A DNA stretch of 64,000 nucleotides from a virus. The stretch lies in the IMG/VR virus record IMGVR_UViG_3300042923_000569, positions 124,001 through 188,000 of that record; one strand, written 5' to 3'. Shown piece by piece: positions 11,749 through 59,361 of the stretch (positions are counted from its first letter, which is position 1; each line of letters starts with the position of its first letter). The notes under the pieces are model-generated. The model did no database searches. It was not told where the DNA came from and saw nothing but the letters and a program-made list of their open reading frames with translations. The translations under genes were made by a program, and so were the position numbers.

Positions 11749-12864
11749 TTATGCAAACATCTTTTTGACTTCAGTTAATTGAATTCCTTTAACATAAGTC
11801 CTGATATTTGAAGATTCAAGTTTACCATTTTTAACCATCTCCTGAATGTCACCAACTGGTGCATCAGTAAACCGATCAAATACTTTGATAATTAGGTCTT
11901 CAAGCTCATTATCAATTTCACGACGAATAATAAAGTACTCGGTCAACTTATAAAGAAAATCTTCACCACCATTATTTTTGATATTCATAGTACTAAAAAG
12001 TTCTACCATATCTTCAGGTTTCTTCTTCCTGAATTTAATCAAACTTTCTGAATGCAATTTAACGAAATTGCTGAATTTAACCATCCGTGCAGGTAGTTTA
12101 ATTGAACCTGCTACATAATCTTTATCAGCAGTCATATTAGAAAGAATAACACTCCAGATAAATTCGTCTCGATGTTCAACAGTACTGTTATCTGCAATAG
12201 AATCAATTAGGTCTAATTCTTTTTGTGTTGCAGTAAAACCTGGAAGAAGAATAGCTAACGCACCAACACTTTTTAAGTACTTCAAAAAGATACTTGGCTT
12301 TTCTTCAGAGAATGCTTTTTCAAATTCTACATATACACGCTCTTTAGTAAGATGATTAATCTCACCAGCGGCAACCATCTGACGCACCATTGCATCAGTG
12401 TCTTTGTGTACGCTGAAATCAGCATAACGGGCCGCAAAACGTGCTAGACGAAGCACACGTAGCGGGTCTTCTTTAAACGCGTCAGAGACGTGTTTAAGCA
12501 CCTTATTTTTGAGATCTTCTTTACCATTATATGGGTCAACGTGTGTCTTTGTAATAATATCCCACGCAATGGCATTGATAGTTAGATCTCGACGAAATAG
12601 ATCCTGTTCTAAAGTTACACCCTGAGTTTCAACGGTGAAACCATCATAACCAGTACCAGTTTTTCTTTCAATACGTGCTAGTGCATACTCATCACCATCT
12701 GGTGATAGAAATACAGGGAAGTCTGCACCAACTTGTTTGTATCCAATACTCTCAAGATATGCAATATCTTTTGGTTTTGCACCAACAAGTACGTAATCTT
12801 TGTCTTTTGGTTTAAGACCTAAAAGTTTATCGCGAACAAAGCCGCCTACAATATATTTTTTCAT
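11749..12864 (-). CDS. CCA-adding tRNA nucleotidyltransferase
   Basis: The protein is 371 aa. The class II poly(A) polymerase/CCA-enzyme motifs are in order: YIVGGFVRDKLLG near residue 5, the metal-binding DKDY, the RIE-type strand, then FRRDLTINAIAWD near 112 and DPLRVLRLARFAARYADF near 158, followed by a helical C-terminal half. It adds or repairs the 3' CCA of tRNAs. It is slightly shorter than E. coli Cca (412 aa), with no HD phosphohydrolase domain visible. Confidence 0.92.
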   Translation of the reverse strand: MKKYIVGGFVRDKLLGLKPKDKDYVLVGAKPKDIAYLESIGYKQVGADFPVFLSPDGDEYALARIERKTGTGYDGFTVETQGVTLEQDLFRRDLTINAIAWDIITKTHVDPYNGKEDLKNKVLKHVSDAFKEDPLRVLRLARFAARYADFSVHKDTDAMVRQMVAAGEINHLTKERVYVEFEKAFSEEKPSIFLKYLKSVGALAILLPGFTATQKELDLIDSIADNSTVEHRDEFIWSVILSNMTADKDYVAGSIKLPARMVKFSNFVKLHSESLIKFRKKKPEDMVELFSTMNIKNNGGEDFLYKLTEYFIIRREIDNELEDLIIKVFDRFTDAPVGDIQEMVKNGKLESSNIRTYVKGIQLTEVKKMFA

Positions 12865-29142: not shown

Positions 29143-30384
29143 TTATTTCCCATACCATTGCATTTCACGAAGTTCAATTAGTAGCTTAGCTGCTTTATGA
29201 ATATCTGGTGCACGTGGTAAATCAGTTTGTTTATATAGTACTTCTCGGATATAGATATCTTTTTCTGTCCAGTAAGCCATCATCTCATCAAATGACCATG
29301 AACCATTTCTGATCGCTAATAGTTCAGCAGCATCAGGACGTTTAACATGAACTTCACCGGTAGTTAATGCTTCTTCGGCAGTTCGTAGTAAACGTACAAC
29401 ATGCATTGCATGTTTTGTATCATAACCGTTGAGTTGCTCTAATTCAGAACGAGCCTCATTACGGTTTTCTTTCCAGCTATGATAGTTATGACGGTTATCA
29501 GAACTCTTCTCGTATTCTTCTTTGTTGAATTTTACAATAAGTTTTGGCTGTTCTTTCACTTCTTCTAATGTCATAACAGAGGTGTCAATACGATTGATAC
29601 TACCATCATAATTGATAGTTTTAGCACCTTCTTTTGGAACTAGACCAAAGATGTTATCACCATATGGAACAAGCTGATAATCATCCCTGTAATTAAGAAT
29701 GTTGAAATCACGATCTAGTACTTGATGTTCGAAATAGTTATGTACCAATTTAACAAAATGATATTGTTTAAGTGGTAAAGTACTGATCATTTGTAATGAA
29801 GCATTACGCATGAATTTTTCGAAATCAATAATAGTTTTTATGTACTGACCTTTCGCCGCTTCAACATTAACAAGATTCATAATGTATGAAGGGAATGAAT
29901 CACCAATCCATTGAACCATTTGCTCACATGGATATTGGTCAATTAGTTCCTGAAGAATACGAACTCCAGTACGTTCTTTATCCATCCAGCCGTGATGATT
30001 TTTCATACGTTTAGCTTGGTTATGAGCATAACCAGTGTATGTAAATGCAATTTTTGAGGATAGAAGGTCGGAACGTGCTGCACGAAGATGATCATACATT
30101 TCAGTTTTGAAAGTAATATCACCTTCATCAACCCATAGTGATTCAAGAATATTTGGGTTAGCAGTAAGATAGAGTTGCATGTAGTTATTCAACTCATAGT
30201 ACTTTGTATCTTCTTCTTTGACGTCACTTACTTCATTAACTTTGAAGAAAGGAGTAATGATGAATTCTTTATCAGCAACAAAGATTCCGCGAAAGTCGGT
30301 ATCAGATGTTGGAGTACTAGTTCCGTAAGCCTGGCTACCTGCCAAGTGTCGGACAATTAAATTGTCTAAATGATTATTTTTCAA
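29143..30384 (-). CDS. RlaP-type nucleotidyltransferase
   Basis: The protein is 413 aa. The pol-beta-type catalytic site is GSQAYGTSTPTSDTDFRGIF at residues 16-35 (G-S and the D-x-D pair). It is followed by an RlaP pattern: NPNILESLW near 83, a helical region with HNQAKRMKNHHG and ELLAIRNGSWSFDEMMAY near the end. RlaP proteins are predicted nucleotidyltransferases that co-occur with RNA ligases and may extend or repair RNA ends. It supports the RNA repair theme. Confidence 0.8.
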   Translation of the reverse strand: MKNNHLDNLIVRHLAGSQAYGTSTPTSDTDFRGIFVADKEFIITPFFKVNEVSDVKEEDTKYYELNNYMQLYLTANPNILESLWVDEGDITFKTEMYDHLRAARSDLLSSKIAFTYTGYAHNQAKRMKNHHGWMDKERTGVRILQELIDQYPCEQMVQWIGDSFPSYIMNLVNVEAAKGQYIKTIIDFEKFMRNASLQMISTLPLKQYHFVKLVHNYFEHQVLDRDFNILNYRDDYQLVPYGDNIFGLVPKEGAKTINYDGSINRIDTSVMTLEEVKEQPKLIVKFNKEEYEKSSDNRHNYHSWKENRNEARSELEQLNGYDTKHAMHVVRLLRTAEEALTTGEVHVKRPDAAELLAIRNGSWSFDEMMAYWTEKDIYIREVLYKQTDLPRAPDIHKAAKLLIELREMQWYGK

Positions 30385-49993: not shown

Positions 49994-50689
49994 TTAAACC
50001 TTCTTAGGGAAATCAATACGGAACTGAGTCATTAGTGAATTATGCAGTGGTTTGAACATTTCAATCATCTCTGCACAACGTTCTTCGATAGTACCAGTAG
50101 TTTCTTCGTACTTCGTTACTATTAGATTATGAATTTCATTGAGAGTTAAAATATCAATCTCTTTTTCAGTTTCGGAAACAGTTTTAATATAAAACCAGCG
50201 TGCATACAAAGGAAACTTGAAAGCGTGGAATAGATTTTTTAATCCAAGTACTTTATCGTAATCTTCAACTACTTGTAATTTCTTTTTACCTTTATCAAAG
50301 GCTTTAGATGTAATAGAACTAATACACGAACGAACTTCATGTAGTTCTTTACTTGATAATGCAAAATCAATATCTTTTTGCATTCCTGGGTTAGCCAGAC
50401 ATATAAAGTACTTAGGCTGAAGACTATTAAGTTCAGCTTCAAACGACTTACGTTGCATGAACTCTACATTAATAGTTAGTCCAGTAAATCCTAAAAAGAA
50501 GGACTTGTGACGCGGTTCAGGAGGTTCTTCATCTACGACAATGGTAACGTCAATATCATTAGGAACAACGTCAAAACCATGCATACGTTCGACATATGAG
50601 CCATATATGATGATATTATGGAAGCCTAATTCGTTGAAGTAATCAAAGATATGGTCAATAACAAACTGCTCTGATGGGTTAATCTTCAT
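49994..50689 (-). CDS. Nucleotidyltransferase-fold protein
   Basis: The protein is 231 aa. The N-terminal part has IIIYGSYVERMHGFDVVPNDIDVTIVVDE at about 24-52, the G-S and D-x-D pattern of pol-beta-type nucleotidyltransferases, and the rest is helical. It may act on RNA ends, a small molecule or a protein. The gene is preceded by an early-type promoter and the small RNA candidate. It overlaps no neighbour. Confidence 0.65.
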   Translation of the reverse strand: MKINPSEQFVIDHIFDYFNELGFHNIIIYGSYVERMHGFDVVPNDIDVTIVVDEEPPEPRHKSFFLGFTGLTINVEFMQRKSFEAELNSLQPKYFICLANPGMQKDIDFALSSKELHEVRSCISSITSKAFDKGKKKLQVVEDYDKVLGLKNLFHAFKFPLYARWFYIKTVSETEKEIDILTLNEIHNLIVTKYEETTGTIEERCAEMIEMFKPLHNSLMTQFRIDFPKKV

Positions 50690-51696: not shown

Positions 51697-51722
51697 TAAA
51701 AAGGGGAACATAAAGTTCCCCT
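51697..51722 (-). terminator. Intrinsic terminator after PhoH gene
   Basis: On the minus strand AGGGGAAC-TTTAT-GTTCCCCT is followed by TTTT. Confidence 0.8.
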
Positions 51723-51727
51723 AACTG

Positions 51728-53149
51728 TTATAGATTTTCTTCTGCGAATGCAGCTAGAGGTGAACGTACTACACCTTCTAATTCAATGATACGACAACCT
51801 TCCCAATCTTTGAACTTTTCAGTTACATAAGTCAAACCACTATTAGTAGGACTGATGAACTTATTATCAATCTGAGATAAGTTACCCATGATGATCACTT
51901 TACAGTTTTCACCAGCACGAGTTAAAATAGTCTTTGCTTGAGCTGGCGTAATGTTCTGGAATTCATCAACAATCAAAATTGTATTAATGAAACTACGACC
52001 ACGAACAAAGTTCAATGCTTTAAACTGGAAGACATTACGTTTCATAATTTCTTCAATTGAACCTTGTGGATTTGCATCATCTTTATGCAAGTACTCTAAT
52101 GCATCAACTGCTGCACCACAGAATGGCATAACTTTTTCCATCTCTGAACCAGGTAAGAAACCAATTTCTTCAAATTGTGAATCCTGAGTTTTGGAGAAGA
52201 TAATGCGGTCATATTTCTTCTTCTCTAGAATTAACTCTAAAGAAGTTGCGATAGCGATTAATGTTTTACCTGTACCTGCTGAACCAAGAAGAATTGTAAT
52301 ATGTACATCTTTGTCCATGATACTGTTAATTGCCATTGCTTGCTGAATGTTCTTGGCTTTAATACCCCAAACTTTACGCGACAATGCTTTAGTCTGACCA
52401 ATGTCGTTTAAACAAACCATATCTCGGTCATCGTCATGTTCTAGTACTGAAGCATAACCTTCAAATACAAACAGACCATCAGCTTCATCATATAGATAAT
52501 CGCCAATACAAATATTATCTGGAAGAAGATGTTTGATATTTTCTTCTGGAATCATTTGTAGTAGCTTGTGACTATCCTGATTAGCATAGACTGTGCCACC
52601 GATTTGATCCCATAGTTTACCAGTAATTTCATGGTGTCCAGTATGGATTAGATCCGAATCTTCGATTGTTACATCATGACGATAATCCTGAACTTCTACA
52701 CCATATGCTAGTGCCTTGATACGCATGTTAATATCACGTGTTACAAGTACAGCTTGGGATAGTCGAGCAACTAGAATAATCTTGTCATCAGGTACAGTAC
52801 TTTTTACTAGAGTATCAAGCTTGTCATCATAGTTTTCACTTAGATGTGCAATTGCTTGAAGTTCCTCAACAGTTAGTACAAATAACTTTGTTTCGGGATT
52901 AATGTGAGGGTGAGTTTTGAAAATTTCAACACCAGTAGTTGAAATTTCTTCATGTGTTGCGTTTTCAAGAATAGTACTAATATTGCGGATTGCAACACGA
53001 GCATCACGTGAAATATCAACTTTACGACTCTTAATGGAATCTAATTCTTCAAGTACAGTGAACGGAAGAATTACATGTGCTCCATCAAATGCTAGGATTG
53101 CATGTGGATCACCAAGAATCACGTTTGTGTCAAGAACATATTTTTTCAT
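51728..53149 (-). CDS. PIN-PhoH protein (PhoH2-like ATPase/ribonuclease)
   Basis: The protein is 473 aa from the ATG of MKKYVLDTNVILGDP; an ATG two codons before sits on the AAGGA site. The N-terminal PIN domain (about 1-155) has DTNVILGDP, LEELD and DINMRIKA, and the C-terminal PhoH ATPase starts around 270. Walker A is LLGSAGTGKTLIA, with Walker B ILIVDEFQN and NFVRGRSF. PhoH2 proteins unwind and cleave RNA in bacteria. In a phage it may remodel mRNA. Confidence 0.85.
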   Translation of the reverse strand: MKKYVLDTNVILGDPHAILAFDGAHVILPFTVLEELDSIKSRKVDISRDARVAIRNISTILENATHEEISTTGVEIFKTHPHINPETKLFVLTVEELQAIAHLSENYDDKLDTLVKSTVPDDKIILVARLSQAVLVTRDINMRIKALAYGVEVQDYRHDVTIEDSDLIHTGHHEITGKLWDQIGGTVYANQDSHKLLQMIPEENIKHLLPDNICIGDYLYDEADGLFVFEGYASVLEHDDDRDMVCLNDIGQTKALSRKVWGIKAKNIQQAMAINSIMDKDVHITILLGSAGTGKTLIAIATSLELILEKKKYDRIIFSKTQDSQFEEIGFLPGSEMEKVMPFCGAAVDALEYLHKDDANPQGSIEEIMKRNVFQFKALNFVRGRSFINTILIVDEFQNITPAQAKTILTRAGENCKVIIMGNLSQIDNKFISPTNSGLTYVTEKFKDWEGCRIIELEGVVRSPLAAFAEENL

Positions 53150-53220
53150 AAACATCCTTTTTTTTGTTGAGTGTTAAAACACTTTGTTTTCCTAACAGTA
53201 TTTAATGTTCCTTTAAACTG

Positions 53221-53523: not shown

Positions 53524-54417
53524 TTACAAACTCCGAATAAAATTAAAGGCATTATCTAAGTACGAAGAAATGTTCTTCGCACCAACAGGATTAGCACTAT
53601 GGACATTATATCCAAATACTTTTGCAATCTGTCGATCCATCATATAATCGATAAGATACTTACAGAATGTATAACCAGTTTCTTCATTTTCATTATCGGT
53701 ATCACCCAAATCATGGTCAAAAGAAACAAATTCAGGTAAACCATGTTGTTCAACGTACTTAACAGCTTCCTGATGAGTACGACAAACAACGAAACCTTCA
53801 CCTGGATAGTACTGTTCAACATCACGCAAATCATCCAAAAACATTTTGTATGACTGCTGTGTTTCACCAGTATAATCAATAAGAAGATTATTATCTTCTA
53901 CAAGTTTAATAAGTTCTTTCTTGGAGGTTCCTACGAAGTTCTGCTCCATAAGAACATTCCAGCCACATTCTACTTTACTCGCCTTAAGATAACGACAAAT
54001 ATGTAGTAAATTCACTCCAGCATTTTCAGCAGGAAAATGTTCACCGGTTACTGCGTTATTACGAATTTCCAGAAGTTCTTCATAAGATACCTCTAAAGAA
54101 AATGCATGATTGTGTACGTTAGTTGCCATGTTTTTATAGCTAACTAATGGTTTTAAACGTTCGATAGGAAGGTCATAGTTAATTTCTTCCTTAGCTTCTC
54201 GAACTACGGCAATTTCTAAACTTGGGTCATCTTTTTCTACTAAACCACCAACTGCACCTAATAAACCATCGAACCGTAATTCTGCAAGTACTAGACTTAC
54301 GTTAGGAATATCATTGTATGGATAATTTTTATATGGATTACAGTTCTTAGAAAAGATCCATACAAAGGCACAATCATAACGATTAGAGCGGGTGCCGAAA
54401 GGAATTTCCTGGTACAT
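53524..54417 (-). CDS. Nudix hydrolase fused to a cREC (cyclic-phosphate processing receiver) domain
   Basis: The protein is 297 aa. Residues about 1-160 form a Nudix domain with the box starting GGLVEKDDPSLEIAVVREAK and continuing EEINYD. Residues about 195-297 match the cREC family: KMFLDDLRDVEQYYPG, then VSFDHDLGDTD, ETGYTFCKYLIDYM and a final strand. cREC domains are predicted to process cyclic phosphate ends in RNA repair. A Nudix-cREC joining suggests RNA 5'- and 3'-end processing, or a linear step in NAD/ADP-ribose removal. The two readings are not settled. Confidence 0.75.
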   Translation of the reverse strand: MYQEIPFGTRSNRYDCAFVWIFSKNCNPYKNYPYNDIPNVSLVLAELRFDGLLGAVGGLVEKDDPSLEIAVVREAKEEINYDLPIERLKPLVSYKNMATNVHNHAFSLEVSYEELLEIRNNAVTGEHFPAENAGVNLLHICRYLKASKVECGWNVLMEQNFVGTSKKELIKLVEDNNLLIDYTGETQQSYKMFLDDLRDVEQYYPGEGFVVCRTHQEAVKYVEQHGLPEFVSFDHDLGDTDNENEETGYTFCKYLIDYMMDRQIAKVFGYNVHSANPVGAKNISSYLDNAFNFIRSL

Positions 54418-54425
54418 ATATTGCC

Positions 54426-55199
54426 TTAATTATTTGTTGACATACGAGCAGTTACGTAGTCATTTAATGTTCCAAGAACATCACCAATTGGACTGTAAAG
54501 ATTGTAACTGAAATGATCGTCTTTATCATGTGGTTCTGGATTAATATTAACAGTTTGTGAAGCTGTTGCTAATCCTGCATATACTGACCACGGAATTACA
54601 CTATCAGATGAACCGATAATAATGAAAGTATCGCGTGCATTTGCACTATCAAGTACTTTATAAAGTTCGTTATAGATTGGTTTACGAACACCATTGTCAA
54701 ACCAGAATGTTTCACCAAACATTACAATATTAGGTTTAGAAACAATACCTGGGGTTGGTGTAAATTCAGTATAACCAATATCAGTCACTTCATAATCTTC
54801 AGAGTTTACTGAAAACGGACTAACTACCTCAGTTAAACGACCATGAACATGCATTGCAGATCCACCAGCACGTTCAGCTAAGTCATCAACATTAGCAGTA
54901 ATATGAATTACTCGGTCATCACCATATAGTTTCTGCATACGTTCAATGAAATAATGTCCTGGGTTTGGTTCAAAATTTTGAAGGCCAACACGCATTTTAT
55001 TATAAAAGTTATGTACTGCATCGTAGTGAGTCATGAAGTGTGCAATATTACAAACAATATCAACACTTACGTTATCCCACAATCCATCACCTGCTGCATC
55101 ACGGAAAGTAGGGATACCAGATTCTTTTGACAGACCCGCTCCAGTACAGAAAATCAGTCGTGGCGTTTCATTATTTTGCAAAAAACTATTGAGATTCAT
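54426..55199 (-). CDS. Sirtuin (SIR2-family NAD-dependent deacylase)
   Basis: The protein is 257 aa. The Rossmann NAD site is FCTGAGLSKESGIPTFRDA at about 18-36, with TANVDDLAERAGG, the catalytic HGRLTEV (His), IVMFGE and IIGSSDSVIPW. The zinc cysteines usual in bacterial CobB are not obvious. It would remove acyl groups from lysines or deplete NAD. It lies 9 bases from the Nudix-cREC gene and near NAMPT. Confidence 0.88.
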   Translation of the reverse strand: MNLNSFLQNNETPRLIFCTGAGLSKESGIPTFRDAAGDGLWDNVSVDIVCNIAHFMTHYDAVHNFYNKMRVGLQNFEPNPGHYFIERMQKLYGDDRVIHITANVDDLAERAGGSAMHVHGRLTEVVSPFSVNSEDYEVTDIGYTEFTPTPGIVSKPNIVMFGETFWFDNGVRKPIYNELYKVLDSANARDTFIIIGSSDSVIPWSVYAGLATASQTVNINPEPHDKDDHFSYNLYSPIGDVLGTLNDYVTARMSTNN

Positions 55200-55207
55200 T
55201 GTTTACC

Positions 55208-55426
55208 TTAAAGGTGTGAAAAGTAAAGTCGGCAACCACAGTTTGGACATTGTGGTTCCTTAATATAATATCCGTCAGTACCGGGTACGGAACGCGGAGC
55301 ATCTTTTATTACATAAACTTTGAAGCACTTAAAACAAGTAACTTCTTTATCGGCTTGGGGATGATCATCAACCCAATCACCACTATAAAGCCATTTCTGA
55401 TGTTCCGTTAAATCCCCATACTTCAT
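55208..55426 (-). CDS. Small zinc-ribbon protein, 72 aa
   Basis: It has two Cys pairs (TCFKCFKVYV and QCPNCGCRLYF), a compact zinc-ribbon, and an N-terminal HQKWLYSGDW. Its start is 12 bases from the 2H phosphoesterase stop. Function unknown. Confidence 0.65.
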   Translation of the reverse strand: MKYGDLTEHQKWLYSGDWVDDHPQADKEVTCFKCFKVYVIKDAPRSVPGTDGYYIKEPQCPNCGCRLYFSHL

Positions 55427-55437
55427 TATAAGCTCAC

Positions 55438-55884
55438 TTAAATTGTAGTCTTATTATATTCATTACCAAAGATTAGTTCTTCTGGTAATACGCCAAGTTT
55501 ATAAATTAGTTCAATTAAATCTTCGTCAGTATCTTTTGGTTGGTACACAATACTCATATGGCATTTGTAACCGGGAAATTTATGTGTAAATCCAGCATTA
55601 AGTAATTCTTTATGACGCTGTTCAATTTCAGGTGAATCAAGAAGTAGTACTATTGCTTCCCATTCCCCACCGGGTTTTCCCAACCTTTCAATTCCAGTAA
55701 TCTTCGCTTTATATGTACTATCATTTTGAAGTAAATTTATTTGAGGATTGCTTTCATCTTGCATTAAGGTAACATGAAATTTAGCTGCTGTCAAGCAATC
55801 AATGCCCGCTAGTTTAAATATTTTTCTGATTTCTTTAGCCTGATCAATATCAAGCTTTAGGCTTACAAATCCTTTTCCAGCCAT
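55438..55884 (-). CDS. 2H phosphoesterase-like protein (second)
   Basis: The protein is 148 aa with two H-x-[TS]-hydrophobic motifs: FHVTLMQDE near residue 37 and CHMSIVYQP near 107, in the 2H superfamily arrangement. Its length, near 150, is like that of the T4 Acb1 anti-CBASS phosphodiesterase, and it is closer to that length than the copy at 15209. It may break cyclic oligonucleotides or RNA cyclic phosphates. The family call is firm, the substrate not. Confidence 0.72.
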   Translation of the reverse strand: MAGKGFVSLKLDIDQAKEIRKIFKLAGIDCLTAAKFHVTLMQDESNPQINLLQNDSTYKAKITGIERLGKPGGEWEAIVLLLDSPEIEQRHKELLNAGFTHKFPGYKCHMSIVYQPKDTDEDLIELIYKLGVLPEELIFGNEYNKTTI

Positions 55885-55896
55885 GAGTAATATCCT

Positions 55897-56091
55897 TTAC
55901 ATAGTTAAAATTAAATAACCTAACAATACTACAAGGATACCTGCAATAATTGCAAGTAAAACTGCACTAACTACATATAGTACTTTTTTATTTTTAGTAA
56001 ATGTAGAACGCTTAGCTTTATATTCAGAGAATGTAAGCCAAAGTATAATTACATACGTAATAACAGATACAACTAGCATTGTGGTTAACAT
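55897..56091 (-). CDS. Small membrane protein, 64 aa
   Basis: Two hydrophobic segments (TMLVVSVITYVIILWLTF and VVSAVLLAIIAGILVVLLGY) join through a basic loop (YKAKRSTFTKNKK). Probably an inner-membrane helical hairpin. Function unknown. Confidence 0.65.
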   Translation of the reverse strand: MLTTMLVVSVITYVIILWLTFSEYKAKRSTFTKNKKVLYVVSAVLLAIIAGILVVLLGYLILTM

Positions 56092-56116: not shown

Positions 56117-56138
56117 AAGAAGGGGGCATAAGCCCCCT
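56117..56138 (-). terminator. Intrinsic terminator after NAMPT gene
   Basis: On the minus strand AGGGGGC-TTAT-GCCCCCT is followed by TCTTTTT. Confidence 0.8.
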
Positions 56139-56143
56139 AAAAA

Positions 56144-57628
56144 TTACAAACCTTTGTTTGCACGTTCACGTACTTCATCGAAGTTACTGAGATTCATAAT
56201 CTCACCATTAACGTACACATCAACCATCATATCACGTAGGAATGGGTTGACTTCTTGTAGTTCAATACGCTCTGCAATAATCTTGTGAGTATTAGTACAC
56301 TCATAAGTAGTGACACGACCACGTAAAGAACGCTTGCCTACATCAGTGATCGGATCTTTGAATAAATCTTCCCAAACACCAGTGTTTAGCTGTTGTGCTG
56401 AACCTTTCATTGCGAAGCTGTAAGTATCGCGACCTTTTTCTGGATGTACTAACTTACCACCCATACCAAATACGATGTTAGAAAGACAAATCTTTTTAGC
56501 TTCAATATTTGCAACAATCTGACGGATACTGTCTTCGTTGATACCATCACCCTGAATCACTCCAATGAATGAAGGTAATTCTTTATAACCATTTGCGTTT
56601 ACAGTAGAACCAAACTTCTCCATCAAAATCTCAGTGATTTCAATTGGCATTGTTAGTGGATCACCGCTATCTGGACGAAGAACTAACTTAGCTCCAGGGC
56701 AAAGTGCTGCGATTTCCATAATGGTAGCTTTCAAACGAGTACCAATGTATTCGCGGGTAAAACGATATGCATCATAGGTATCAATCACTACTGATACGAT
56801 TGGTGGAACACCAATTGAACCTTTAGCAATATATGCACGTACTTTCATTTCCCACAAACGAACCATCTTAACTGCCATATTAAAGTCGTCGCGTTTGTCT
56901 GCGTCTGAGTTAGAACATGTTGCACTATGCTCACTCGCAGTAACTGAACTCAAATATGCATTAGTTGTGTGGTAGTATTGTTTAATGTAACGGTTAGCAC
57001 TTAGACAATCAGAACCGTTGAACAATGCCGCATGTGCCATACCTGCAATAATTGCAGATTCGAAGCTTGAAGCTCCGCGATCACCGAAGTTATGCAAGTG
57101 ATAGTCCACAAAGCGAGAGCCAGTATGACGCTCCATTGTATCAGCTAAGAATTCTTTAATGCTACGTGCATTACTAGCAACTGTAGTTGGGAACCAAACA
57201 CCACGCTGAAGCTGAGTTTCAATGTAGCTTGCAATTACACAAACACGCGGATCAGTACTGAAAGAACGTACTAATGGACTACCAACAGGAACTAACGTAC
57301 CTTCTGGAATTGCACGAATATGTAATGGAATTTTACCTCCATGTACTTCTACAATGTGTTCCCAAAAACCGCGATCAAAATCATCGCCACGTTGTTCAGT
57401 TTCTAGCTGTGCTTCGTCAATGTCATCAGTAGTGATGCTAATATCTAAGTACTCTTGTAGATAGTACTGTAGACCCATCATCACAACATGTGTTGCGTAC
57501 TTACTTGGTTTACGTGCAATGATATTTGATTCAAGAGCTACAACACCCTCTTTCATCATAAAACCGTGACCAGTTTTGTACGAATCGACATTTAAAATAA
57601 AGTTTACATTTTTGTTAATTTTGTTCAT
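56144..57628 (-). CDS. Nicotinamide phosphoribosyltransferase (NAMPT)
   Basis: The protein is 494 aa, as human and phage KVP40-type NAMPT (about 490). Recognisable parts are NVDSYKTGH near residue 14, YLHNFGDRGASSFESA-type YHLHNFGDRGASS near 180, VVIDTYDAYRFT near 286, LRPDSGDP near 317, and IVFGMGGKLV. It joins nicotinamide and PRPP to form NMN. With the NMNAT-Nudix gene 600 bases away, this makes a two-step NAD+ salvage path. Both genes share a specific 5' leader. Confidence 0.95.
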   Translation of the reverse strand: MNKINKNVNFILNVDSYKTGHGFMMKEGVVALESNIIARKPSKYATHVVMMGLQYYLQEYLDISITTDDIDEAQLETEQRGDDFDRGFWEHIVEVHGGKIPLHIRAIPEGTLVPVGSPLVRSFSTDPRVCVIASYIETQLQRGVWFPTTVASNARSIKEFLADTMERHTGSRFVDYHLHNFGDRGASSFESAIIAGMAHAALFNGSDCLSANRYIKQYYHTTNAYLSSVTASEHSATCSNSDADKRDDFNMAVKMVRLWEMKVRAYIAKGSIGVPPIVSVVIDTYDAYRFTREYIGTRLKATIMEIAALCPGAKLVLRPDSGDPLTMPIEITEILMEKFGSTVNANGYKELPSFIGVIQGDGINEDSIRQIVANIEAKKICLSNIVFGMGGKLVHPEKGRDTYSFAMKGSAQQLNTGVWEDLFKDPITDVGKRSLRGRVTTYECTNTHKIIAERIELQEVNPFLRDMMVDVYVNGEIMNLSNFDEVRERANKGL

Positions 57629-58245: not shown

Positions 58246-59361
58246 TTAAAGAATACCTAAGAAAGTATCAATAATACTTAAATGATCTTCAAAGAACTTA
58301 TCACGGTTCTGAACTAATTCACCAAGTGGCATCCAGAATGCTTTTTCAGCATCATCTGCACCTTTAACTTTAGGTAATGTATTATCCTGAAGTTGAATGT
58401 ATGCACATTTAGTAATGATACGCCAGCGTTGGGAACGATTGAAATCACCAAACTCCATACTTTCACGGATTGAACCTTCAAGTACTTTCATTGGAACATC
58501 AATCTTTGTTTCTTCTTTTAATTCACGTAAAGCAGTTTGAATTTGATCTTTATCCTGCCAAGCGTCAAAGAACCCACCGGGTAGAGCATATAAACCTTTA
58601 CCTGGGAAAGTGCGGCGTTTAACAAGAAGAATGTGACCTGCACTGATTACCATTGCGTCACCCGTTAAGAACGGAATGTTGTTATATGGTAAACGTTCAT
58701 TCATCTCTGCACGATAACGTTGAACAAAGTTAAACTCGCCAATTAGATTATCAAAAATTACTGGTTTAGTTTGCATGAACTTACCAAGAAATTCTTGTGT
58801 TTCTTCTGGTAATGATTCAGGAATCTGTTTAGTACTGAAAAATTGATTACGAACTTCGGTACTATTAATCGTAATAGGATTTGATTCTGCGTCCTTCTCA
58901 CGATATTGCTGAGGAATACCAGCTTGCGATTTCTTAACTTCACCAATGAAATCCTGTTGCCATTGTGGGAAGAAGTTAAGATAAAAAGTACTTTCATCTG
59001 CTTCTTTCTGACAACCAGTAATTACAATGTTATCGCTTGAAGTAACGGACTTAACTTGTTCGTGTACTTCCATCAACCATTTGCTGTTGTTATATACATA
59101 ATCGTGGATTGGTAAGATATTAATCTTAACCGAACGCCCTTTAGCCCACTCTTCTTGAACTAAACGATTAGACATAGCATCCAGTACCTGACGGCGTTCT
59201 TCAAACGAAAACGGATTTTTTGAATCACGTGCAAGCTCCGAACTACCAACAAGAATTACCAAACGGTCTGCATTTTCTAATGCATGTTTAATGGTTGCTT
59301 CATGACCTGTGTGTGCCATTTGGAAACGACCAATATACACATATACTTTTTCTTTACTCAT
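58246..59361 (-). CDS. Bifunctional NMN adenylyltransferase / Nudix hydrolase (NadM-like)
   Basis: The protein is 371 aa. The N-terminal NMNAT domain has GRFQMAHTGHEATI near residue 8 (the HxGH-type site as HTGH) and NSTEVRNQF near 165. The C-terminal Nudix domain has GGFFDAWQDKDQIQTALREL followed by KEETKIDV. The NMNAT half makes NAD+ from NMN and ATP; the Nudix half breaks ADP-ribose or similar. It completes the NAMPT pathway. The same pair is known in KVP40-like phages and as phage NAD+ reconstitution against NAD-depleting defence. Confidence 0.93.
   Translation of the reverse strand: MSKEKVYVYIGRFQMAHTGHEATIKHALENADRLVILVGSSELARDSKNPFSFEERRQVLDAMSNRLVQEEWAKGRSVKINILPIHDYVYNNSKWLMEVHEQVKSVTSSDNIVITGCQKEADESTFYLNFFPQWQQDFIGEVKKSQAGIPQQYREKDAESNPITINSTEVRNQFFSTKQIPESLPEETQEFLGKFMQTKPVIFDNLIGEFNFVQRYRAEMNERLPYNNIPFLTGDAMVISAGHILLVKRRTFPGKGLYALPGGFFDAWQDKDQIQTALRELKEETKIDVPMKVLEGSIRESMEFGDFNRSQRWRIITKCAYIQLQDNTLPKVKGADDAEKAFWMPLGELVQNRDKFFEDHLSIIDTFLGIL

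Follow-up and report, generated by a model that had tools for sequence, protein, structure and literature searches.

A Nudix-cREC fusion protein encoded next to a sirtuin in a giant phage, and its possible place in RNA repair

The DNA analysed here (the window) is a stretch of 64,000 nucleotides, positions 124,001 to 188,000 of IMG/VR record IMGVR_UViG_3300042923_000569. The source is a 357,873-base record of a giant bacterial virus, with Pectobacterium phage CBB, Cronobacter phage GAP32, Xanthomonas phage XbC2, Erwinia phage Kaldavass and Serratia phage BF as its phage relatives. The gene discussed in this paper is a single intact ORF on the minus strand which begins with ATG and encodes a protein of 297 amino acid residues (Table 1; window coordinates throughout). 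It belongs to a unit of genes bounded at both edges by intrinsic-terminator-like hairpins, within which the sirtuin, 2H phosphoesterase, Nudix, cREC and PIN coding regions all lie on one strand between 51728 and 55884. The sirtuin, which the initial annotation had placed beside the fusion, is indeed its immediate upstream neighbour.

Table 1. Positions of the genes, domains, motifs and hairpins discussed in the text
Feature	Position	Strand	Evidence or remark
Nudix-cREC fusion gene, 297 aa	53524..54417	-	ORF, Pfam, orthologues
NUDT16-like Nudix domain, residues 1-183	53869..54417	-	Pfam, PHROGs, phmmer to human NUDT16 family, fold
Catalytic Nudix-box residues R73-E74 and E77-E78	54184-54201	-	Invariant among orthologues
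cREC domain, residues 190-289	53551..53850	-	PF20274, conservation in 154 unique cRECs, model and fold
cREC motif DD.R	53824-53835	-	
cREC motif FDHDL	53707-53721	-	
cREC motif HSANPVG	53581-53601	-	
Small predicted membrane protein	55897..56091	-	First gene of the terminator-bounded unit
2H phosphoesterase, Acb1 family	55438..55884	-	H37VT39 and H109MS111 both kept
Small zinc-ribbon protein (Phage_zn_bind_2)	55208..55426	-	Pfam
Sirtuin (Sir2 family)	54426..55199	-	8 nt upstream of the fusion gene
99-aa protein, N-terminal hydrophobic segment	53221..53520	-	3 nt downstream of the fusion gene
PIN nuclease-PhoH ATPase fusion	51728..53155	-	Last gene of the unit
Intrinsic-terminator-like hairpin after NadV	56121..56138	-	Upstream edge of the unit; 7 pairs, 6 GC
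Intrinsic-terminator-like hairpin after PIN-PhoH	51702..51722	-	Downstream edge of the unit
NadV nicotinamide phosphoribosyltransferase	56144..57628	-	NAD salvage, neighbouring unit
NadM-type adenylyltransferase fused to Nudix	58246..59361	-	NAD salvage, neighbouring unit
OB-fold RNA-ligase-family protein	17723-19033		
CCA/polyA polymerase	11749-12864		
RlaP protein, nucleotidyltransferase-like	29143-30384	-	PF10127

A terminator has been annotated in phage Munch at the place matching the hairpin after NadV. Since hairpins follow directly upon both NadV and the PIN-PhoH gene, the sirtuin-Nudix-cREC unit is probably apart from the NAD salvage genes. NARP2 NAD salvage is defined by NadV plus an adenylyltransferase; both are present here, and this NARP2-like pair falls into a separate unit by the terminator scan. 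We also considered cREC, Nudix and NAD salvage as one unit, a proposal weakened by the terminator-like hairpin between them and by phage 121Q, which has no NadV. Downstream of PIN-PhoH, a nucleotidyltransferase-like gene (49994-50689, minus strand) gives a weak match to Polbeta/DUF6932.

The initial annotation described the protein as a Nudix domain joined to a receiver-like cREC domain, and profile searches bear out both halves. Pfam assigns residues 31-179 to the Nudt16-like family (PF22327, E 4.9e-18), with a further match to NUDIX (PF00293, E 3.1e-6), both above their curated cut-offs. Residues 190-289 match the whole 88-position profile of cREC_REC (PF20274, E 7.5e-23) with 81.5 bits, the curated cut-off being 27. 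The PHROGs families split the protein in agreement with this, phrog_9999 (nudix) covering residues 1-183 and phrog_1479 residues 187-292. The DDLR, FDHDL and ETGY motifs are located where they had been read, as D195-D196-L-R198, F233-D234-H235-D236-L237 and E246-T247-G248-Y249. The annotation had staked its reading on the C-terminal part being cREC, and this part matches cREC in the profile search as well as giving the receiver-fold model described below.

By sequence and by fold, the nearest solved relatives of the Nudix half are human NUDT16 and Xenopus X29 (phmmer E 5e-10 to the human NUDT16 family). The R-E-x-x-E-E helix is present, and R73, E74, E77 and E78 do not vary among the 11 phage orthologues compared. 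While sequence and fold of this half and the catalytic glutamates are shared with NUDT16 and X29, identity in the fold alignment is 16%, and the phage protein adds a cREC tail. F36 of NUDT16 aligns with Y34 of the fusion protein and F61 with A55; in view of the latter replacement the substrate preference of human NUDT16 ought not to be assumed for the phage enzyme.

Conservation in the cREC half was assessed across 154 unique cRECs from phages and bacteria. Near-invariant residues are D195, D196, R198, R213, G226, P228, S232, F233, D234, H235, D236, L237, D239, T247, G248, K253, H273, S274, N276, P277, G279, N282 and I283, every one of which is retained in the window protein, in this set and in a 33-sequence alignment too. 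The motifs DD.R, FDHDL, TG and HSxNPxG are all kept, as in members of PF20274. The window version thus agrees with that family in its full-length match and its near-invariant residues, and differs in having a Nudix domain at the N-terminus, whereas sampled cRECs from beyond this phage clade stand alone as proteins of about 100-170 aa.

An AlphaFold model of the cREC part, built from 33 sequences (pLDDT 91.8, pTM 0.85), has four strands and a long final helix. The matches listed in a comparison with the PDB are receiver-domain proteins, the best having Z 9.5 and rmsd 2.3 over 89 residues; the best E value in Foldseek was 2.4e-3. From this model the cREC half appears to adopt the receiver fold. 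It has, like the receivers CheY, NtrC1 and LuxO, an acidic pair after strand 1 and an Asp after strand 3, at the usual receiver positions. Unlike them, it is without the fifth strand and the switch lysine which that strand carries, and so departs from a canonical two-component receiver; the invariant HSxNPxG motif comes after strand 4, and no histidine-kinase partner was found in the loci examined. Many of the structural alignments end near chain residue 100 of the about 120 in PDB receivers. To judge by topology rather than by coordinates, D195, D196, D234 and H273 may face one pocket. The sequence search matched no solved cREC structure, absence from these lists not being proof. An AlphaFold run on the whole fusion with 9 close sequences was poor (pLDDT 64) and its domain arrangement is not interpretable; the match of its Nudix part to NUDT16 agrees with the sequence result.

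A search for the same fusion, which the initial annotation had suggested, found the fused frame in CBB, GAP32, XbC2, Kaldavass and BF as well as in other IMG/VR contigs, identities ranging over 69-80%. In RaK2, 121Q, Munch, fENko and Hallingskeid, Nudix and cREC are separate adjacent genes in unchanged order. For the pairs that allowed an estimate of dS, dN/dS is about 0.03-0.16 in the Nudix part and 0.01-0.15 in the cREC part, figures that are indicative only because dS is often close to saturation or beyond it; the linker is poorly constrained. By these comparisons both domains are under purifying selection. We rejected a frame or assembly artefact, as other independent records carry the fusion and both domains are constrained. 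In a tree of 10 fused systems (the window and nine other records) and 7 split ones, one branch (support 91/96, recovered in 93% of bootstrap trees) has all the fused systems on the same side. This shared placement makes a single fusion event likely, though not certain, probably by the joining of two genes that had been separate neighbours.

Whether the phage has the fused or the split arrangement, cREC is followed by a protein of 99-105 aa that has conserved cysteines and a hydrophobic segment at its N-terminal end; the window version is 42% identical to that of RaK2 and gave no family match. Phage XaC1 was dropped as a further carrier of the small downstream membrane protein, since BLASTP gave no match there.

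The joining of Nudix and cREC, pointed out in the initial annotation, is not a new observation and had been published before. The cREC domain was named in a 2021 jumbo-phage survey (PMC7824862), and the fusion with its gene neighbourhood was described in Serratia phage BF by Iyer et al. 2022 (PMC9503650); neither is a discovery of the present work. The BF protein (AQW88638) is 72% identical to ours, with the same fusion and the same order of genes in its sirtuin-2H-Nudix-cREC-PIN neighbourhood, and the two differ in sequence divergence only, nothing in architecture or order being new. The window neighbourhood corresponds to type 1 of Iyer et al., in which a sirtuin is linked to 2H, Nudix, cREC and PIN.

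The sirtuin matches CobB-type deacylases, and N103, D105 and H119 are kept in 11 of 11 relatives; the zinc-binding cysteines of CobB are absent from the phage protein in the alignment. In class M (SirTM-type) sirtuins the catalytic His is replaced, and with H119 invariant in the 11 phage sirtuins these do not belong to that class. The RaK2 sirtuin (L006:6261-6998) has lost a portion of its cofactor loop near the N-terminus (the FRDA-GLW stretch) and for this reason may be altered or inactive, the adjoining Nudix and cREC being retained.

Gene co-occurrence was scored in 18 cREC-bearing phage records, a NUDT16-like Nudix being counted when over the cut-off. The NUDT16-like Nudix and the sirtuin are found in exactly the same 11 of the 18, including 121Q. 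NadV occurs in 15, among them 5 of the 7 that have no sirtuin, and is absent from 121Q, which has the sirtuin-Nudix-cREC trio. NAD salvage and the 2H enzyme track Nudix and sirtuin less well than those two track each other. That the Nudix gene tracks the sirtuin is as expected if the Nudix enzyme processes a product of the sirtuin; the 11 shared occurrences are not independent, because they descend from one syntenic ancestor.

Genes of RNA repair recur around cREC. The genes lying at most two places away from 26 non-redundant viral cRECs include RNA ligases (phrog_968 in L142 and L151) and RtcB (L137), along with polynucleotide kinases, RlaP and a phosphatase of PNKP type. In the phage under study an Rnl1-type ligase and a P-loop kinase-like gene are about 1 kb apart, and three further genes inside the window are listed in Table 1 (RNA-ligase-family protein, CCA/polyA polymerase and RlaP). 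Rnl1 RNA ligase is present in 17 of the 18 cREC phages, a count taken from cREC phages alone that may reflect a general trait of large myoviruses.

We tentatively favour, as quite possible, an explanation in which the fusion works within phage RNA repair and clears away, in two steps, an ADP-ribose derivative that the sirtuin has produced. Host nucleases would cut RNA and leave 2',3'-cyclic ends, to be opened by the 2H enzyme or cREC. The sirtuin would then use NAD+ to strip the 2'-phosphate from the RNA, yielding ADP-ribose 1''-2'' cyclic phosphate, which cREC (through D195, D196, D234 and H273 at its strand ends) and/or the 2H enzyme would open. The NUDT16-like Nudix domain would next cleave the pyrophosphate to give AMP and ribose phosphate, and a kinase and RNA ligases whose genes lie at other places in the genome would reseal the RNA. 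Observed here are the domains with their intact catalytic or invariant residues, the gene unit, the co-occurrence of sirtuin and Nudix, and the RNA ligases and kinase-like gene. The substrates and reaction steps would all be as predicted after Iyer et al. 2022 (PMC9503650), a paper that arrives independently at the RNA-repair and ADP-ribose reading of the initial annotation. Processing of cyclic phosphates by cREC is a prediction in both PMC7824862 and PMC9503650, and removal of 2'-phosphate from RNA by the sirtuin was proposed by analogy with KptA (PMC9503650); our literature search found no experimental paper or assay on cREC. The RNA-repair explanation follows the same predicted logic as the KptA/Tpt1-2H-macro tRNA 2'-phosphate pathway, that is NAD-dependent phosphate removal and then opening of cyclic ADP-ribose phosphate, and departs from it in that KptA was not detected in this phage and a sirtuin is proposed as its substitute.

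In favour of RNA repair are the gaps of only 8 and 3 nt around the fusion gene within a terminator-bounded unit, and the sirtuin-Nudix-cREC order retained by the split relatives. The co-occurrence of NUDT16-like Nudix and sirtuin, the RNA-repair genes around cREC and in this phage, and the retained Nudix catalytic and near-invariant cREC residues also speak for it, as does the matching neighbourhood and proposal in PMC9503650. Against it, 7 of the 18 cREC phages have neither a sirtuin nor a NUDT16-like Nudix. T4-type polynucleotide kinase/phosphatase can remove a 2',3'-cyclic phosphate by itself, so that another way of doing so would be redundant in part. KptA is the known enzyme for removal of the 2'-phosphate, and we know of no demonstration of a sirtuin performing its chemistry, as the second step requires. 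Because the phage sirtuin retains the canonical deacylase histidine, plain deacylation fits as well; it would yield O-acetyl-ADP-ribose, which is likewise cleaved by Nudix enzymes. The stronger proposal that in cREC the receiver fold has been put to a new, enzymatic use, as a phosphodiesterase, seems to us conceivable though rather doubtful. On that proposal the D195/D196/D234 pocket would have been kept and the switch-lysine strand lost, HSxNPxG would give the catalytic acid, the fusion with Nudix would allow a single protein to convert ADP-ribose cyclic phosphate to AMP, and the paired sirtuin would act on RNA.

The unit might instead destroy ADP-ribose-derived or cyclic-nucleotide messengers of the host, with the Acb1-like 2H enzyme acting on CBASS signals and Nudix-cREC cleaving the cyclic ADP-ribose products of TIR or related NADases. 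Consistent with such counter-defence, the anti-CBASS Acb1 model picks out the 2H gene, whose similarity to solved Acb1 proteins is weak (E 4e-5), NadV and NadM are encoded just upstream, and processing of cADPr by cREC was proposed in the 2021 paper (PMC7824862). We nevertheless consider it unlikely, given that no Acb1-type 2H gene was detected in RaK2 and 121Q, which both retain sirtuin-Nudix-cREC, that a terminator-like hairpin sets the NAD salvage genes apart, and that RNA-repair genes adjoin free-standing cRECs. Remodelling of RNA ends that involves no sirtuin product would have Nudix removing NAD or other 5' caps, cREC trimming 2',3'-cyclic 3' ends, and PIN-PhoH degrading or unwinding RNA. 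This strikes us as rather unlikely: NUDT16 and X29 are U8 snoRNA decapping enzymes and the PIN-PhoH gene is part of the same unit, but the Nudix gene tracks the sirtuin and not cREC or PhoH (XaC1 has the latter two and neither of the former), and the F61 to A55 replacement speaks against transferring substrate preference from NUDT16.

Human NUDT16 trims ADP-ribose from protein, and the phage Nudix could do the same on protein or RNA, leaving cREC to handle the leftover phosphate. Reversal of ADP-ribosylation in this manner is improbable in our estimation, as Pfam found no ADP-ribosyltransferase, macro or NADAR genes in the unit and the specificity residues are kept only in part; membership in the NUDT16 family, the presence of solved NUDT16-ADP-ribose complexes among the fold matches, and the existence of a defence based on an mRNA ADP-ribosyltransferase (PMC11618068) speak for it. 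The near-total conservation of D195, D196, R198, D234, H235, D236, G248, H273 and N276 in the 154 phage and bacterial sequences, and the absence of the final receiver strand together with its switch lysine, make it very improbable that cREC is a ligand-binding or regulatory module with the Nudix half alone catalytic. Ordinary receivers act as switches and not as hydrolases, and what would favour a regulatory cREC is its receiver fold, the lack of an enzyme assay in the literature searched, and tandem paralogues in the same genome that keep DD.R, one Asp, TG and HS and have lost the His-Asp of FDHDL and NPxG.

The fusion offers a natural hint at the substrate of cREC, a domain widespread in hundreds of viral contigs as well as in bacteria, and its remaining interest is biochemical rather than architectural. 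Since the trio exists in fused and split versions in laboratory-accessible phages, the published prediction is testable with two or three purified proteins.

The paralogues just mentioned are two tandem cREC-like genes on the minus strand (C1:299955-300245 and C1:300317-300607; L002: 1432-1791 and 1788-2153). Among the 18 records, extra tandem cRECs are found only in the fused-gene phages, which have three cRECs each, the split-gene phages having one. The cREC gene also occurs in many Chryseobacterium species (L036-L115, mostly Chryseobacterium genomes), some of the contigs being chromosome-sized.
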